DNA of 64,000 nt from Methanocalculus taiwanensis (GTDB lineage: Archaea; Halobacteriota; Methanomicrobia; Methanomicrobiales; Methanocorpusculaceae). Below, piece by piece: positions 3,233-12,060 of this stretch. A program made the position numbers and the translations under genes. Position 1 is the first letter of the stretch. Each line of letters opens with the position of its first letter. Under the pieces are notes generated by a model. It was not told the origin of the DNA and made no database searches. It saw only the letters and a list, made by a program, of their open reading frames with translations. The stretch spans positions 1 to 64,000 of the forward strand of contig NZ_VOTZ01000002.1 in assembly GCF_024372745.1 (NCBI RefSeq), given 5' to 3'.

Positions 3233-3454
3233 GCTCAGATTGTATGGGTTTCATGGATTTGCAAATATCTCAGGATATCTCCCATCGATCAACATTAGGA
3301 TTGGCGTAACTATCGCGCATTCCTCCTGATATGGAGAGGGGCTTCATGCGATTATTTTGGCTACATGCCTCAATATTAGCATAATAGGCTTTATTCTTTT
3401 CATATGATAAGAAAAGATCTTATACTAGTCTGGCATCATCACTTTTATTGGATC

Positions 3455-3462
3455 AGGAGGTG
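3455..3462 (+). promoter_or_regulatory. ribosome binding site that fixes the TTG start of the marker 14 gene
   Basis: AGGAGGTG at 3455-3462 is a near-perfect Shine-Dalgarno sequence seven bases before TTG at 3470. It argues against starts further upstream in the same open frame. Confidence 0.75.
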
Positions 3463-3469
3463 TGTTACC

Positions 3470-4951
3470 TTGCTCTCAAAGAGTGTAAAACCCCATATTG
3501 TCCAGGATATCGCCGTCCCACAGATCATTAGGTTGGGGGGGATTTCTATCCCCGAATATCGTGAAGAGGCATATCATATTGTATTATCGATTGACCTTGG
3601 CAATACGACGACAGCCTGTGTAATTGTTGGAACAAATCTTGCATCAGGATTGACATATATCATAGACAAGAAGGTCTGGATGATCCATTCCATCCGACCC
3701 CCGAAAAAAGGGGAGGAGATATTTGGCAAATCTCTCGATGGCACTATCCTTTCGAGAAATGCCGTGGAGGAGCATATCCGTGATATTATTAAAGCAACCC
3801 TGAAGGAAAGCAAGATAGATCCATCGAAAGATCTGGATTATCTGGTTCATACGACCGGACTGGTGGGCCAATGGGAATCTGATAAGCATATCAATTCATA
3901 TCTTGGATGCCTGAGCAAGGGGTGCATGGATGCGGGCATTCCTCCCTCGAAGATGCGCCCTCCTATGTCGAAGGATAAACTCCCCTCTGATGACTCGCAA
4001 TTCAGCCTGATGGACAGGGTGATGTATGACGGTGCCGTTGCCGGGACAATACCTGCGACCGGGCTCTCCGGCAGGGTAATGATTGCAAACGATATGGAGG
4101 GCGATCTCTCGCTTGCCGGAATAAAACAAGGTGCCCTATCCACTCCTGTCGATTTCAGAAACCCTTGTGTTGGTATTGATTTTGGAACGATCATTGATGG
4201 AAGATTCACCGAGGCGGTGCCGAAAGGGCGTGACGATCCTTATGCCCGGACCACCGGGTGCATTATTGGTCTTGGAGGTGCGATCGCAGACGCACTGACA
4301 AGAGGTACAGGGGAGGTTGATCCAATCATTGGAACCGCCCGTGAATTCTTCGGGGACAATATCATCTCCGGCTATTTCTCGAAGAAGGAGTCAAAGAGAA
4401 TCAGGAACTATGTCGATTCGGTCCATGAACTGATCAAAGTTGAAGAGGTGGCCCATAACCATACACATGTTGGTCTTGTTCCAATAGATCCCTCTATCGC
4501 AGAGAATATGAAGATCAAAATATTCGGTGTGGATGCGGGAGAGAACTTCAACGGGCACGATGCATTGATGGAAATCGGCATGGAGGTCTTTAGGAAGGAA
4601 GGTCGAAAAGGATTCACCGAACTGGTGGATCGCGTGATGTCGAGGACGGCCCTCCGCCTGATCAGGGTGGCTGCAGAAAAGAAGGTATTCACCGGGGATA
4701 TGGCGATCGGTTTTTCGGGTAGGGCGATCATGTCCGGGAGAAAACCCGAATATGTCCTCGAAGGGGTGATTAATAGCGAACAGTATCGTGATCCAGTAGA
4801 TCGAATGGTTTTTGTATCGAGTGCGCTTCCCCGTGGTGCGGCACTCATGGCACGCTGCATGAGTGGTTTGGGCAACCCAAAAAAGCCGATTGGAGGCTGC
4901 AGGGGCGAGGCATGCATTCTTGGGAGAAGAAAAAGGTTCCAGAATATGTAA
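3470..4951 (+). CDS. methanogenesis marker protein 14
   Basis: A 493-residue protein matching the methanogenesis marker 14 family, which is conserved in methanogens but of unproven function. Near residue 40 it has SIDLGNTTTACVIVG, a phosphate-loop like that of the actin/Hsp70/sugar-kinase (ASKHA) fold, and later CVGIDFGT, GCIIGLGGAIAD and FSGRAIMSG glycine-rich loops. The C-terminus holds GGCRGEACILG with two cysteines. This resembles ATP-dependent reductive activators of corrinoid enzymes, so a role in activating a methanogenesis enzyme is an inference. The TTG start at 3470 is supported by an ideal Shine-Dalgarno sequence; an in-frame extension to 3404 is not. It is monocistronic and not near other methanogenesis genes here. 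Confidence 0.88.
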   Translation: MLSKSVKPHIVQDIAVPQIIRLGGISIPEYREEAYHIVLSIDLGNTTTACVIVGTNLASGLTYIIDKKVWMIHSIRPPKKGEEIFGKSLDGTILSRNAVEEHIRDIIKATLKESKIDPSKDLDYLVHTTGLVGQWESDKHINSYLGCLSKGCMDAGIPPSKMRPPMSKDKLPSDDSQFSLMDRVMYDGAVAGTIPATGLSGRVMIANDMEGDLSLAGIKQGALSTPVDFRNPCVGIDFGTIIDGRFTEAVPKGRDDPYARTTGCIIGLGGAIADALTRGTGEVDPIIGTAREFFGDNIISGYFSKKESKRIRNYVDSVHELIKVEEVAHNHTHVGLVPIDPSIAENMKIKIFGVDAGENFNGHDALMEIGMEVFRKEGRKGFTELVDRVMSRTALRLIRVAAEKKVFTGDMAIGFSGRAIMSGRKPEYVLEGVINSEQYRDPVDRMVFVSSALPRGAALMARCMSGLGNPKKPIGGCRGEACILGRRKRFQNM

Positions 4952-5043
4952 GAAAATCCATAAATCCCCTCAAATAAAAGGAAGCCATATTCAACAATAT
5001 TTTCTTAACCATATAGAAATTACGAATTTGACATGAGGTGTCA

Positions 5044-8000
5044 TCAGATTACATACAATATGAAATACAGTAATATCCAGGGGATAAATAGCCCCGCCCA
5101 GATAATGGCGTTCCATTTCTTGATACTCTTACCATCCATGGGCCTACAAGGGATCATGGAAAATAAACCTTCGATCATATTTGCAATAAACCCAAGCCTC
5201 CCTATCATCAGCCATATGCCTCCTACTGGGATCATGAATAGAAAGACCGTTCCGAGCAGGATATTAACGCCAGGTCCGGCTAGCATTGTCAGCCCCTTTT
5301 CCGTTTCAGTGTGGGACTCATTTTCCATGACTTTCATATGGAGTGGCTGGCCGAAGACGTTTCCGAAGAAGACGCCAGTGACGATGCTGGCAATCGTTCC
5401 TGCGGGATAGATGCGGATGGCTGATTCGATAGCATATTTCCTGGCAATCATCATATGCGCGAGTTCATGGGCAACAAGGGCGATTCCAACGATCAGGAGA
5501 TAGATAAGAATCAGCATAGGATCTAAACCGATTCTATCGGCAAACATGAACGCAGCGGCATAAATGATCGCACCGGATAGAATGACTATCAGATTATTCC
5601 TTGTCATCCCAGGTATAAGGCGGCCACCTGCTTTCTTTGATCCAGGCTGTTCGAAGGTATTTCTCTCGCCGTAAAGTTCTAGCGCCTCCTCCCCAATGAA
5701 TTCTGAGACAATGTTGCCCAGTCTCTTAAGGAATGATGAGAACCATCCTGAACCAAAACTACTGCCTGCACCACCTCCTCCCCCTGAAAAGAAACCCGCG
5801 AGAGACGCTGCGCCCGCACTCGCCATTACACCAGTTGCAACCGCGGCGACGGGAGCCACATCGTGTGGTATAATGCTATCTGCCGGCACTGGAATGTGGA
5901 TGTGTAAGGGGGCGCCAGAAGAGTCTCTGCCCCCGCTTCTGAGGCTTGACTTCAGTTTGTTTATAGATGATGAGATATCTTCCGAAAATGATTCTGTCAT
6001 ATCGATAACGGGAGCTTCCGTAGGTACTTCGGGTGGAATCTCTGCTTTTTCTTCTGATAGAATCTCCTGAGGTACGTCAGCTGGTTCCTCAGGGGGTGTT
6101 TCAACAGGAGTTTCCGGAGCAGCTGGCTGAACTGGTGGGGTAGCAGGTGCCGGAACTGATCCACCACCATTTGATGGTGGTGCCGGTGCAGGCATCATGT
6201 TCGTGACCGCCTGCCCGGTGAATGTCGCAAGGATCCCACCATCTCCTGCCGTCACATCACCAGCTGTATAATTAATGGTTATTACGTTTCCATAGGCAAT
6301 AGCAGTACCATTGCACGTCAGGACGAACTTTTTTGTATCGGCATCAGGAACTGCTATAGAGAAGGTCTGATCACTCCCTCCGTTGATCTGGTACGCGAAC
6401 TGGCCATGCTTCCCGGCAGGATCAGCCATCGCCTTACTAAATGTAACGGTGATTTGCGATCCGGCGGTGTTTGTTGTAGCGGAACTAACGGTTGGTAGTG
6501 ATGGAGTTACATTGATGTAATCAACCTTTTCTGTTGTATTACTGCCACCGGCGTTTGTTGCGGTCAGGTTTACCGTGTAGAGGCCAGAAGCGGCATAGGT
6601 GTGTACCGGGTTCCGGGTGGTGTTTGTTGTTCCGTCACCGAAATGCCAGAGCCAGGAGGTCGGTTCAGCGGTCGAAGAATCGGTGAACGTGACCTGGAGG
6701 GGTGCGGTGCCTTCGGTCGGGGTACCGGTGAAGTTTGCCACAGGCGGGGAAGGGGGAGCTTTGGAAACGTTGATGAACGTTGTCTGGGTTGATATATTGA
6801 ATCCTCCGGAATTACTCGCATTGAGTACGATTGAGAAGTTTCCTGTTCCAAAAACATGTTCTGGATTATGCTTCTCGCTGAAATACTGTGGAGTATTGTC
6901 TCCGGTTACATTGATAAATGACCAGTTCCATGCGGTAGGATTATTGGTCGATGTATCATTAAACTGGACAGCAAGCGGTGGATTCCCTTCTGTGATGTTC
7001 ACGGTGAAGCTGGCAACAGGTATCTGTGCAGGCATCATGTTCATGACCGCCTGCCCGGTGAATGTCGCAAGTATCCCACCATCTCCTGCCGTCACATCAC
7101 CGGCTGTATAATTAATGGTTATTGCATTTCCATAGGCAATGGTGGTGCCGTTGCATGTCAGGACGATCTTTCGTGTATCAGCATCAAGAACTGCTGCTGA
7201 GAAGGTCTGATCACCCCCTCCGTTGATCTGGTACGCGAACTGACTGTTCTTTCCGGCAGGGTCAGCCATCACCTTGCTGAATGTGACGATGATCTCTGTT
7301 CCGGCAGTGTTTGTCGTCGCATTGGTAACAATTGGTGCCACAAGTCCTGTTACTGTGACATAATCTGTTTTTCTTGTACAATTATACCCCACGGTATTGA
7401 ATGCCTGCAACGCCACTGAGTAGGTACCTGTTGTATTATATATATGGGATGGATTCTGTAAAGATGACCCTGCAGGTTGCATTCGCCAGACATCGTTCTT
7501 TCGTACACTATCAAAACCCCCCATGATGACGATACTCCCATCTGGCATTGCGACTCCAGAGTGGCAATGTCGTGCCATCCAGTCTGCACCCGCATTTACC
7601 TGAATCCATGTAACGCCATTATCCGTTGATCGCCAAATATCATTCAGGGAATTGCCCTGGCTGTCCATACCTCCCATAATGACTATGCTTCTGTCTGGCA
7701 TCTCAATACAGCTGAAATACTCCCTCCCCAACCATTCGGCAGCTGCGGTCTGTTCAATCCACGTGACTCCGTTATCAGTTGATCTCCAGACATCGTTCCT
7801 TTTTAAGCCATCATAACCCCCTAAAATCACAATGCTATCGTCCTTCAGTACAACACATGAGTGGCCGAGCCTTTCAGTCCATTCAGCACCTGCGGTCTGT
7901 TGAATCCACGTAACCCCGTTATCGGTTGATCTCCAGACATCATGTAAAGTCCCACCGTCATAACCACCCAGTATCACAATACTATTGTCAGTTAGTATTA

Positions 8001-8580
8001 CGCTGCTATGGCCACTTCTCGCCGTCCATCCAGAAGCGGCTGTCTGCTGTGTCCATGTAACGCCCTTGTCGTTTGACATCCAGACGTCATTCTTAAGGCT
8101 CCCATCGTCCCCGCCCATCAGGAGGATACTGCCGTTTGGCATCACAACGCTGCTATGAACATATCTCGCCGTCCATCCGGCAGCAGCTGTCTGTTGTGTC
8201 CATGTAGCACCATTATCGTTGGAAATCCAGACGTCATTCGTATAACCGAGATCATCCTCACCACCCATGATGACAAGGCTCCCGTCTGGCAGCACTGTGA
8301 CGGTATGACCGTTTCGCGCCGACCACCCGGCACTATTATTCACATTCGTCCACGCCCCAGAATAATCCTCATCGCCAAAGAACCACGCCCATCCTGTGGG
8401 TGTGTTTGCAGACAGATCGGTAAATGTGACGGTAAGGGGTGTAGCGCCTGTTGTGGGCGTACCTGTGAAGTCTGCGAGCGGAGCAAGTGCAGACACCGGA
8501 TACATAAAGAACACTATCAAAAATAGAATTAACAGGATACGCATCGGCCTGCATGCAGTGTATGCACGCACCCCAACCAT
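5044..8580 (-). CDS. PKD/kelch surface protein fused to a site-2-type membrane metalloprotease
   Basis: A 1178-residue envelope protein. Residues 14-32 are a signal peptide or anchor. A PKD domain begins at about 34 (PLADFTGTP...WFFGD) but is interrupted after residue 73 by six kelch repeats of about 51 residues (74-373, each with IVILGG-type strands and NDVWRS), and finishes at 375-412 (NPSHIYNTTGTYSV). Two near-identical SwmB/Big-like modules (about 420-513 and 700-793) flank two further PKD domains (520-606 and 613-692). A Pro/Glu-rich linker (800-860) and a Gly-rich stretch lead to a polytopic M50/S2P domain (about 996-1178) with HELAH (1038-1042), AGPGVN (1101-1106) and PCRPMDG (1144-1150), that is, all expected zinc-site motifs. 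A GGAGG site nine bases upstream supports the ATG at 8580. Substrate unknown; it may sense or shed surface material. Confidence 0.88.
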   Translation of the reverse strand: MVGVRAYTACRPMRILLILFLIVFFMYPVSALAPLADFTGTPTTGATPLTVTFTDLSANTPTGWAWFFGDEDYSGAWTNVNNSAGWSARNGHTVTVLPDGSLVIMGGEDDLGYTNDVWISNDNGATWTQQTAAAGWTARYVHSSVVMPNGSILLMGGDDGSLKNDVWMSNDKGVTWTQQTAASGWTARSGHSSVILTDNSIVILGGYDGGTLHDVWRSTDNGVTWIQQTAGAEWTERLGHSCVVLKDDSIVILGGYDGLKRNDVWRSTDNGVTWIEQTAAAEWLGREYFSCIEMPDRSIVIMGGMDSQGNSLNDIWRSTDNGVTWIQVNAGADWMARHCHSGVAMPDGSIVIMGGFDSVRKNDVWRMQPAGSSLQNPSHIYNTTGTYSVALQAFNTVGYNCTRKTDYVTVTGLVAPIVTNATTNTAGTEIIVTFSKVMADPAGKNSQFAYQINGGGDQTFSAAVLDADTRKIVLTCNGTTIAYGNAITINYTAGDVTAGDGGILATFTGQAVMNMMPAQIPVASFTVNITEGNPPLAVQFNDTSTNNPTAWNWSFINVTGDNTPQYFSEKHNPEHVFGTGNFSIVLNASNSGGFNISTQTTFINVSKAPPSPPVANFTGTPTEGTAPLQVTFTDSSTAEPTSWLWHFGDGTTNTTRNPVHTYAASGLYTVNLTATNAGGSNTTEKVDYINVTPSLPTVSSATTNTAGSQITVTFSKAMADPAGKHGQFAYQINGGSDQTFSIAVPDADTKKFVLTCNGTAIAYGNVITINYTAGDVTAGDGGILATFTGQAVTNMMPAPAPPSNGGGSVPAPATPPVQPAAPETPVETPPEEPADVPQEILSEEKAEIPPEVPTEAPVIDMTESFSEDISSSINKLKSSLRSGGRDSSGAPLHIHIPVPADSIIPHDVAPVAAVATGVMASAGAASLAGFFSGGGGGAGSSFGSGWFSSFLKRLGNIVSEFIGEEALELYGERNTFEQPGSKKAGGRLIPGMTRNNLIVILSGAIIYAAAFMFADRIGLDPMLILIYLLIVGIALVAHELAHMMIARKYAIESAIRIYPAGTIASIVTGVFFGNVFGQPLHMKVMENESHTETEKGLTMLAGPGVNILLGTVFLFMIPVGGIWLMIGRLGFIANMIEGLFSMIPCRPMDGKSIKKWNAIIWAGLFIPWILLYFILYVI
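6187..6480 (-). repeat. direct repeat copy encoding a Big-like module (C-terminal copy)
   Basis: About 294 bases that recur at 7027-7320, exactly 840 bases (280 codons) away, with few differences. It encodes residues about 700-797 of the PKD/kelch protease protein. The two encoded modules differ at roughly one residue in six, which indicates a fairly recent internal duplication or gene conversion. Confidence 0.9.
7027..7320 (-). repeat. direct repeat copy encoding a Big-like module (N-terminal copy)
   Basis: Partner of the copy at 6187-6480, in the same orientation and frame. It encodes residues about 420-517 and follows the kelch-containing PKD domain, whereas the other copy follows a plain PKD domain. 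Confidence 0.9.
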
Positions 8581-8632
8581 GAGATAAACCCTCCGCTTCG
8601 CCTAACTAATATCACTTCCTTATATTTAATCA

Positions 8633-8658
8633 AAGTATATATAATTTTTTATGACTTT
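8633..8658 (-). promoter_or_regulatory. probable TATA promoter of the PKD/kelch protease gene
   Basis: On the minus strand TTATATATAC (8635-8644) is preceded by an A-rich stretch ending CATAAAAAA, the arrangement of an archaeal BRE plus TATA box. A start of transcription about 25 bases downstream (near 8610) would give a leader of about 30 bases containing the GGAGG site. The rest of the 291-base gap (8581-8871) holds no gene I can support. Confidence 0.5.
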
Positions 8659-8871
8659 TTTTGGATGAGAGGGCATCAAAAGAATATACCAGGTGATTTC
8701 ATGAATTTGTTGGATTCGCATTGATAACTGTGGAAAAAATAGATACCCGAGGCATCACTCTCGTCACTACCAATTCTCAGATTCGATCTGTTATCAACAA
8801 AAAAAGAAGATAGGATACTACATTGGAATTAATACACCATGTTTATAGGCCAGAAAGAGGTTGTCGTATCA

Positions 8872-11800
8872 CTATTTCTCTTCCCGCCACCCTTTCTCCG
8901 GCACACTGATCACAAACCTCGCACCCTCGCCATAGACTCCATTCTCAGAGATGGTGATGCCGGTGATACCAAGGATCTCCCTGATGAAGAAGAGACCAAG
9001 CCCGGTATTCTTACCAAAGCCACGCTCAAAGATCTTCTCCTTCTCATCATCCCTGATCCCAATACCATCATCCTCCCAGATGATCAGTATTGGTCGTGAG
9101 TTTCTGTCGGAATCCCCTAGGATGCCATCATCTTTCTTGTCCAGCTGGCAGGAGACTCTGACTCGTGTGACGTCCAATGCATATCGCTCGGTATTCTCCA
9201 TTAAATTCGCAAAAACCTTTGGAAGGAGTGGATCTGCAAAGATCGAGATCTCACTGGTTTCATTGATAATCGGTATCCTTGAAGAACCAATCTGCCCAAT
9301 CACATGCGAGAGCTTCTGCCAGTCTGGTGCAGCAATTCCGAGGTTCTGATATTCTCTGGTGAACGCAATCTGCCTCTGGATTCGTAGAGCCGCCATCTCA
9401 ATCTTCTGTAGATATCCGGAGAGCTTTGGTTCATCTGTGATGTCTTCGGCAAGGGAGAGGTAGCCATTTAGAACCGTCAGCTGATTTGCGATATCATGCC
9501 GGGTAATACCGGTCATCAGGTTTAGTTTCCTGTTTGCATCGGCAATGGCTGCGGCACTTCTGGCAAGCTCTTCGTCTGCTTTTTTTGTGGCTGTGATGTC
9601 ACGGGCGATCCCTTCAATTGATACTATCTCACCTTTATCATCATAGATGGGGACATTCCGCTGCTCCACCCAGATGATCTCACCATCTTTTCGGATATAC
9701 CTGAGAACCGGATACATCATCCCTTTGTTTTCACCAGTGAGGTCCGGGAGCTGATCATCCGGGTGGATAACCCGCCTGCCAAGATCGGGATCTGCATAGA
9801 ACTCCTCAGGTGAATATCCGGTGACAGTTTCCATTGCCGGGTTTGCATAGACAAAATGCGGTTCTGGGAGAAGATCAATTCTATAGATGATATCCCCGGC
9901 ATTCTCGGCAAGCCGGCGGAACCGTTCTTCACTCTCACGAAGTGCCTGCTCGGTCTGCTTCTGATCAAGGATGCCAAAAGCGAGATTGCCAAGCGTAATG
10001 AGGGCATCCGCATCATCTTTTGTGTAAGGATCCTGTTTATTGGCAACAGCAAGGATTGCAGAGATCCGGTCCCCGTCAAATATCGGAACCGTGAGGAACC
10101 GCTGAATGGTAACATGTCCATCCGGACAGCCACGTTTCATCGGATGATCCAAACCATAATCATTGATGATCACTGATCTCCGGTTTCGGACAACTTCACC
10201 AAGGAGTCCGGTTTCTCCTATTATAAATACCCCGGGTGGCCTTGGCATCCTGCATGCATCCATAACTTCCTCGGACCAGGCATGGATTGTCAGTTGCGAT
10301 TCATCTCCATCAAGTAAACCGATGAAGGAATACTGGCTCTCTGTCATCTCCCGGATCCCTTCAAGGGCATAGTCCAGAACATCCTGTTTTGTCTCCTCAC
10401 TCTTCTGGTAGAGATCGAGAAGACTGCGTGTCCGCTTGAGGTGAATCTTAATATCCTGCTCGGCTGCCTTCCGATCTGTGATATCTGTCAGAACACCATG
10501 TACCCCAACCACCTTCCCATCCTTAATCATTGGCTGTGCGGCAGTCCTCATCCAGACAAAATGTCCGTCCTTTGCGATCACGCGGTATTCAGAGACCTTT
10601 CCCCTGCCAGAGACAGTCTTCCTGAATTCTTCTTCCCTGCCCTCTCGATCTTCAGGATGCACAAATTCGAGGAAAGATTTCCCGATCACCTCTTCCGCCA
10701 CGTAACCTCCCAGCGCCTCGGTATTTGGAGTCACATAGGTCACTTTACCCTCCAAATCCAATGTATAGATGATCTCAGTCAGGTTCTCGACGAGGGCACG
10801 GTATTTTCTTTCACTCTCAATCAGGGCATCTTCTGCCAGTTTTATATCAGTGATATCCGTGAGGAGGCCGTGGATACTTCTTATTGTATCTCTCTCCTTT
10901 ACCGGCCGTGCCTTCAGTTTCATCCAGAGATCTCTCCCTTTCTGATTTCTGACTGGAACTTCTGTCACGATCTCTTCTCCGGAGAGGATCTGGTTAATAA
11001 ATTGCATAACTTCCCCCTTCACTTCGGGAGCTGCAAAATCTGTTAAATGCTTTCCTTTTGCCTCATACACCGGAATACCAATGACTTTTTGTACATTTGG
11101 AGAGAGATATGTGACAATGCCCTCAGGATTTAAGGTGAATATGATATCATCAAGATTTTCTACAATTGTCTTGTATTTCTCGGTATTTTCACGTACTTTG
11201 GCTTTCTCCTCAAGCAATCCGCTGATGTCCCTGACAAAGGCAAGGATGTATGCCTTCTCCATAACCACAACACGGGTAAGGAATACTTCGACATCGAAGA
11301 CGGAATTCTCCGTTGGCCTCCGTGCCTGCCAGGAGAATAGTTGATCCTGCCCGGATATGACCTCCTTCCACTTCTCCTTGATATCATCCACATTGGAAGC
11401 AGGACCCGTATAATCACGGAGAGTAAATGTAAGCGCCTCTTCCCGGCCAAGGCGGTACATCCTGAGCATGGTTTCATTCACATCAAGGAGCTTGTCCTCA
11501 AGATCATGGATGAAGATCGCCTCAATTGAATGATCCATTAAGGTGCGGAAGAGATCCCGGGAATCCCGGAGTCGGTTTTCAGTTGCAATCAAATCATCAA
11601 GCTGCGAACGCATCTCCTCTTCAGCTGCCGCAAGCTCTTCGTTCTTCCTTCTCAGCTCATCCTCGGCTCTCCTCCTGTTGATGGCAAACTCAAGTTTTTT
11701 TGCAAGTTCTGCAAACTGCGATTTGGGATCCCCACCCTTCTGGAGGTAAAAATCTGCACCTTCATTAAGCGCCTCGATTACGACATCCTCCCTTCCCTTT

Positions 11801-12060
11801 CCGGTGAAAATAATAAAAGGGATGGGACTGCCGGCAGCACGGATAGCTTTCAAGAGTTCAATCCCATTCATTTGCGGCATCTGGTAATCTGATATGACAG
11901 CATCATAGGATCTATTTAATATATGGTTGAGCCCCTCCTCCGGCTCTGTCTCTATATCTACAATGAACTCACCAGTCTGTTCAAGAAAGAGCTTCCCAAG
12001 ATCGAGGAGTGCTCTCTCATCATCAATATAGAGGACAGAGGGGGGAGAAGAGCCAGCCAT
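8872..12060 (-). CDS. hybrid sensor histidine kinase: receiver, four PAS, GAF, kinase core
   Basis: A 1062-residue soluble signalling protein with no membrane segment. The N-terminal receiver domain (1-125) has the acid pair Asp13/Asp14 and phosphoacceptor Asp58 (ISDYQMPQMNG). A short coiled linker (130-165) leads to PAS domains at about 167-285, 295-410 and 420-535, a GAF domain at about 550-700, and a fourth PAS at 710-828. The kinase core has the H-box TRHDIANQL (His855), N-box (NLMENTERYA, about 952-961), G1 EDDGIGI and a GKNTGLGL G2 loop. The TRHDI-N-QL type of H-box is typical of methanogen kinases. The N-terminal receiver fused to a kinase suggests it takes part in a phosphorelay. Ligands are unknown, and no separate response regulator lies next to it. 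Confidence 0.93.
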   Translation of the reverse strand: MAGSSPPSVLYIDDERALLDLGKLFLEQTGEFIVDIETEPEEGLNHILNRSYDAVISDYQMPQMNGIELLKAIRAAGSPIPFIIFTGKGREDVVIEALNEGADFYLQKGGDPKSQFAELAKKLEFAINRRRAEDELRRKNEELAAAEEEMRSQLDDLIATENRLRDSRDLFRTLMDHSIEAIFIHDLEDKLLDVNETMLRMYRLGREEALTFTLRDYTGPASNVDDIKEKWKEVISGQDQLFSWQARRPTENSVFDVEVFLTRVVVMEKAYILAFVRDISGLLEEKAKVRENTEKYKTIVENLDDIIFTLNPEGIVTYLSPNVQKVIGIPVYEAKGKHLTDFAAPEVKGEVMQFINQILSGEEIVTEVPVRNQKGRDLWMKLKARPVKERDTIRSIHGLLTDITDIKLAEDALIESERKYRALVENLTEIIYTLDLEGKVTYVTPNTEALGGYVAEEVIGKSFLEFVHPEDREGREEEFRKTVSGRGKVSEYRVIAKDGHFVWMRTAAQPMIKDGKVVGVHGVLTDITDRKAAEQDIKIHLKRTRSLLDLYQKSEETKQDVLDYALEGIREMTESQYSFIGLLDGDESQLTIHAWSEEVMDACRMPRPPGVFIIGETGLLGEVVRNRRSVIINDYGLDHPMKRGCPDGHVTIQRFLTVPIFDGDRISAILAVANKQDPYTKDDADALITLGNLAFGILDQKQTEQALRESEERFRRLAENAGDIIYRIDLLPEPHFVYANPAMETVTGYSPEEFYADPDLGRRVIHPDDQLPDLTGENKGMMYPVLRYIRKDGEIIWVEQRNVPIYDDKGEIVSIEGIARDITATKKADEELARSAAAIADANRKLNLMTGITRHDIANQLTVLNGYLSLAEDITDEPKLSGYLQKIEMAALRIQRQIAFTREYQNLGIAAPDWQKLSHVIGQIGSSRIPIINETSEISIFADPLLPKVFANLMENTERYALDVTRVRVSCQLDKKDDGILGDSDRNSRPILIIWEDDGIGIRDDEKEKIFERGFGKNTGLGLFFIREILGITGITISENGVYGEGARFVISVPEKGWREEK

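Follow-up and report, generated by a model that had tools for sequence, protein, structure and literature searches.

A surface protein of Methanocalculus taiwanensis that combines a kelch propeller inside a PKD domain with an S2P-like membrane module of altered catalytic set

The gene and its locus

The window, i.e. the whole stretch of 64,000 nucleotides of Methanocalculus taiwanensis DNA that was analysed, contains on its reverse strand a single intact ORF for a protein of 1178 amino acids (Table 1). Pfam places its kelch and PKD domains far above the cut-off and gives a weak match to the M50 peptidases. The first-pass annotation had described a kelch-in-PKD ectodomain and an S2P-type membrane part in one chain, and this single-chain architecture is real. 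The two Ig-like domains share 86% DNA identity across 300 nt (6179-6478 and 7019-7318), and they appear to be the product of a recent internal duplication or conversion.

Table 1. Features of the S2P-tailed surface protein gene and of its locus (positions in the window; res, residues of the 1178-aa protein)
Feature	Position	Strand	Basis or remark
Whole ORF, S2P-tailed surface protein, 1178 aa	5044..8580	-	
Signal peptide, res 1-32	8485..8580	-	hydrophobic 15-33, ends VSALA; predicted cleavage site
PKD domain, first half, res 34-71	8368..8481	-	PKD_4 profile 4-43 alone, 6-85 when joined
Six-repeat kelch propeller in PKD FGD loop, res 74-373	7462..8361	-	Pfam, AF2, Foldseek; repeats D2-D4
PKD domain, second half, res 374-411	7348..7461	-	PKD_4 profile
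Ig-like (SWM_repeat/Big_5-like) domain 1	7033..7338	-	22.6-22.9 bits, slightly below cut-off
PKD domain 2	6763..7026	-	Pfam PKD_4 in several stretches
PKD domain 3, res 612-692	6505..6747	-	Pfam
Ig-like domain 2	6193..6498	-	DNA repeat D1
Linker rich in Pro/Glu, with conserved [LV]P...IP stretch before TM-a	5866..6189	-	
TM-a, Gly/Ala-rich helix, res 906-932	5785..5865	-	conserved across S2P-tail family
TM-a-to-core linker, res 933-993	5602..5784	-	predicted cytosolic; net positive on family average
S2P-like core, res 994-1178	5047..5601	-	Pfam, module HMM, AF2, Foldseek
HELAH zinc-site motif, res 1038-1042	5455..5469	-	motif
GPGVN, res 1102-1106	5263..5277	-	motif
SMIPCRPMDG, res 1141-1150	5131..5160	-	Asp1149 ligand kept; Ser1141 in place of Asn
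Second, divergent Mmp14 (TIGR03285/DUF2114) paralogue	3404..4951	+	convergent neighbour of the surface protein gene, same insertion
5.6-kb segment with only the S2P-tail gene and the Mmp14 paralogue	3262..8876	.	missing at this site in G004 (same genus)

Upstream of the gene and on the same strand lies a PAS/response-regulator histidine kinase gene (8872-12060). In the same-genus genome G004, an orthologue of 83% identity identifies the empty site, and the flanks of the gene pair are joined there by 127 bp; thus, the two genes represent either a 5.6-kb insertion here or a loss in G004. Neither terminal repeats nor a transposase were seen at the insertion, and base composition was uninformative as a mark of foreign DNA (GC 0.498 for the gene, 0.481 for the window). 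A viral origin was dismissed, as no relative was found in the viral contigs scanned with the kelch-PKD part and with the S2P tail.

The kelch-in-PKD unit

When the two PKD halves (residues 33-70 and 374-413) are joined and the kelch insert is left out, they match PKD_4 with 47.7 bits over positions 6-85 of the 85-position profile, which exceeds the cut-off of 27 bits and assigns them to the PKD domains. Scored separately, they reach 15.8 and 28.9 bits, and the two matches adjoin at profile positions 43/48, which places the kelch insert in the hairpin of the PKD FGD loop. In the AF2 model of the protein, which had an alignment of only two sequences, the PKD halves have pLDDT values below 45 and the propeller values of about 65-89. 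The kelch repeats score 107 bits in Pfam, and a Foldseek search with the modelled propeller returned the kelch domain of LZTR1 as the top PDB match (E 9e-20), the best hits all being kelch domains. Repeats and propeller fold are both present, and the insert belongs to the kelch beta-propellers. At the sequence level, the proposed nesting of a kelch propeller inside a PKD domain is borne out by the joined PKD match together with the kelch score.

A search of Methanomicrobiales detected the unit as full-length or partial copies in 68 of the 232 genomes of the order, with up to eight per protein. Because full-length copies occur across the order, the unit is not a chance product, and its frequency also rules out that it is unique to the window. 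The kelch-in-PKD part is an ordinary, common building block in this order. In the surface proteins of Methanomicrobiales that carry it, the composite unit is shared at about 45-60% identity and often stands in tandem. Those examined end in a dockerin-like region or in a single TM tail. Further copies in the same genome include one in a protein of 2166 aa, whose end is dockerin-like, and one in a protein of 475 aa, whose tail is a single TM helix. In contrast, an S2P ending was seen only in the window protein and in Methanoregula copies (G171/L150). The nearest kin of the window's unit are Methanoregula-group and not same-genus copies, a placement that is weakly supported. Blade number varies: the unit at L150 (4988-5998) has five repeats, one fewer than the window copy.

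The S2P-like module and its family

The C-terminal core was modelled by AF2 with pLDDT values of about 80-97 (alignment of 23 sequences), and the top PDB matches of this model are MjS2P (3b4r; the best) and SpoIVFB, with probability 1.00 and E-values of 0.008 to 0.07. The predicted fold of the core is that of an S2P. In Pfam, the S2P part scores 25.5 bits against PF02163, below the gathering score of 27.2, and the relative L223 passes with 38.6 bits. The module shares with the site-2 proteases of MEROPS family M50 the fold, the HExxH helix, GPxxN and PxxPxDG. It differs from them by its position C-terminal to a big exported ectodomain, by the lack of a conserved Asn and by an extra weak helix, TM-a, which with about 60 further residues stands before the core. 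HELAH falls within the second core helix (1021-1048), a predicted TM helix, which agrees with the earlier placement of this site within the membrane. In S2Ps, HExxH is expected at the inner end of its helix. By the parity of signal peptide and TM-a, the core of the window protein would start inside and HELAH would lie at the inner helix end; the topology as a whole is predicted in this way.

With an HMM of the module, a family was defined by scores above 120 bits for a module that takes in TM-a and forms the very C-terminus behind an exported ectodomain, and the window protein falls within it. The search returned 57 distinct ectodomain-fused proteins (120-370 bits), the minimum size of the family and some of them cut by contig ends, whereas the stand-alone S2Ps used for comparison (about 200-250 aa) reached at most 117 bits. 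In the tree, the two groups stand on opposite sides of a branch marked 100*. Members occur in five of the six sampled families of the order, mostly in Methanoregula, as well as in two families outside it, and often there are several per genome; a genome outside the order (G266) has two S2P-tail genes in tandem (L230, 4665-5978 and 6139-7461). Among the eight genomes of the window's genus, only this one has a member. The ectodomains are swapped and include kelch-in-PKD units, PKD arrays, PEGA, NosD-type beta-helices, Calx-beta and a propeller-like repeat with PKD. The tails are best described as a separate family of Halobacteriota surface-protein C-termini, in which the S2P fold and mostly also the metal site are kept and the catalytic set is altered. 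One relative from Methanoregula fen_47 (L118/L150) has the window's domain combination minus one kelch repeat. Because its S2P part belongs to a different subclade from that of the window, the combination of kelch-in-PKD and S2P probably arose twice.

Weak matches to NF041501 (NCBIfam, FGLLP motif-containing membrane protein) recur over the PxxPxDG region and once cover most of the module. All are far under the cut-off of 150 bits, and this entry is a weak relative only. A review of archaeal membrane proteases (PMC9263693) describes Haloferax S2Ps that bear CBS and PDZ domains, with no mention of PKD.

HELAH (1038), GPGVN (1102) and PMDG (1147) are all present in the window protein. HExxH and NPDG are motifs of M50 peptidases that are jointly needed (PMC6131628). 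In the window protein, HELAH provides both His and the Glu, a state kept by only about a third of the family, and Asp1149 provides the third ligand of the NPDG motif. In the same segment, the Asn of NxxPxxPxDG, which is probably essential in S2Ps, as its conservation in 44 of 44 stand-alone enzymes suggests, is found in just one of the 57 family members, and the window protein has Ser1141. An earlier description of the site as intact is therefore right for HELAH, GPGVN and the ligand Asp on an S2P fold, but it fails at this Asn. When six columns are scored (both His and the Glu of HExxH, one Asn each from GPxxN and NxxPxxPxDG, and the Asp ligand), the complete set is present in 43 of 44 stand-alone S2Ps and in none of the 57 family members. 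The window site (H-E-H-N-S-D) has one substitution and is the nearest to canonical in the whole family. Different from the M50 site-2 proteases, the family mostly has HDxxH, and the commonest site state is H-D-H-S-S-D (31 members). The same genome also encodes stand-alone S2Ps with canonical motifs.

In the 32 HDxxH members, five tested columns (H, D, H, S and the ligand D) are invariant. In the 11 genomes that hold both, mean pairwise identity is 76% for the HD module, 70% for the stand-alone canonical S2P and 52% for the ectodomain. Conservation of the HD module thus matches that of active S2Ps, so the module is functional and under strong constraint. It is constrained as a working part would be, while its cutting residues have changed. 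In a beta-helix subgroup and a few other members the site is wholly lost; the NosD-like L125, L128, L228 and L229 lack HExxH (PK..Q or PR..Q) and its His and retain the module.

Linked genes and possible functions

In the Methanoregula clade of PKD-array HD members, the upstream DNA was visible for 20 members, and 18 of these are preceded by MscS and/or MscL genes in the same orientation, with varying outer neighbours. Examples are L140, L146, L148, L149, L153, L209-L212, L217, L218, L241 and L242, among others. In the window's own subclade, the member in genome G110 has an adjacent, convergent MscS gene. Neither MscS nor MscL was found among the genes neighbouring the window gene, which has the Mmp14 paralogue as its convergent neighbour. 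The genus orthologue of Mmp14 lies elsewhere in the genome (contig G000:C33) and is 47% identical to the window copy. Pfam assigns the paralogue to DUF2114 only and no PDB sequence match was obtained, while its motifs (DLGNTTT, GIDFGT) make it look like an ASKHA-type nucleotide-binding protein. An Mmp14 paralogue also stands beside an S2P-tail gene in G037, where the two run in the same direction and are separated by 12 bp. G127 very probably has such a pair too, in divergent orientation; there the surface gene leaves its contig within TM-a and a second contig begins with a matching S2P tail. The Mmp14 copies beside S2P-tail genes in these two genomes and in the window's own genome (G000) fall into two paralogue clades. 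Extra Mmp14 copies similar to that of the window (G127, G134, G202, G205, G131) form one clade, and some extra copies adjoin secreted-protein genes, for example that of a subtilase in G202. A single general partner for the whole family was rejected, since the linkage to MscS/MscL occurs in a single clade and in one further, convergent case, and that to Mmp14 only in the clade of the window. PAS histidine kinases are found near many members, including that of the window, and were too common to be counted as a link.

We consider that the signal peptide would export a kelch-in-PKD binding head on a stalk of Ig-like and PKD domains, that the Gly/Ala-rich TM-a would cross to the cytosol and that the S2P-fold module would end the chain in the membrane. 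There, the module may act as a membrane-embedded, metal-binding, pseudoprotease-like unit that retains the ectodomain and interacts with a partner in the membrane or in the cytosol, to which it possibly relays ectodomain binding or tension, with cutting absent, weak or altered. This reading of a metal-binding and probably non-cleaving or altered module that binds a partner or relays tension has, in our judgement, about an even chance of being correct; metal binding, partner binding and the lack of efficient proteolysis are its conjectural parts. Two points speak against it: the window protein is a single substitution away from canonical and so could still cut, and the MscS/MscL linkage belongs to another subclade than that of the window gene. 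Functional proteins with an intramembrane-protease fold and altered catalytic residues likewise exist among the iRhoms (of the rhomboid type; PMC3149277) and in EGY3 of plants, an S2P pseudoprotease that has a stabilising function (PMC10978774). Unlike the S2P-tail family, they are not tails of modular surface proteins, and EGY3 lost the zinc motif, whereas most S2P-tail members keep the ligands.

The first-pass annotation had suggested an active receptor-protease in one chain, in which contact on the outside could control cleavage in the membrane and thereby shedding or signalling. The substrate would be TM-a, cut in cis, or a different TM protein, cut in trans. In favour of this, HELAH, GPGVN and Asp1149 are present, TM-a is conserved and Gly/Ala-rich like many intramembrane-protease substrates, and the topology parity fits. 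However, the NxxP Asn is lost, most of the family is HDxxH, and no substrate or operon partner from the known pathways of regulated proteolysis is linked. The full catalytic set occurs in no family member, and the conserved Asn is missing from the window protein; cleavage or shedding under the control of contact is therefore not the leading explanation, and we regard it as rather unlikely.

It is improbable that the module is a mere relict helical bundle that passively holds surface proteins in the membrane. The free exchange of ectodomains and the complete loss of the site in the beta-helix subgroup and a few others would fit such an anchor, but both His, the substituted Asp, the Ser and the ligand Asp do not vary in any HD member, conservation of the module equals that of the canonical enzyme, and a single TM helix would serve equally, as it does in kelch-PKD relatives. 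Improbable, too, is a new catalytic variant in which HDxxH, or HExxH with Ser, still cuts by a shifted mechanism or on a narrow substrate range, as the replacement of Glu by Asp usually deprives HExxH enzymes of most activity, even though the coordinated changes (Glu to Asp and twice Asn to Ser), the retained ligands and the strong constraint would suit it.

The reading of a partner-binding, metal-binding module can be extended to the family, albeit tentatively and with considerable doubt. In this extension, the proteins would form a class of receptors that is widespread in archaea. Their standard membrane half would be an S2P re-tooled by changes of the catalytic Glu and Asn but with its metal site kept; it would serve surface proteins with exchangeable outer parts and pass ectodomain binding or tension to a genetically linked partner: MscS/MscL in Methanoregula and the duplicated Mmp14-type protein in the window lineage. 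If this is true, archaea would own a class of intramembrane pseudoproteases or altered S2Ps as membrane ends of surface proteins, and their conserved metal site, HDxxH, would be open to direct test. It would also tie archaeal surface proteins to mechanosensitive channels and provide a first functional lead for the duplicated Mmp14-type protein.
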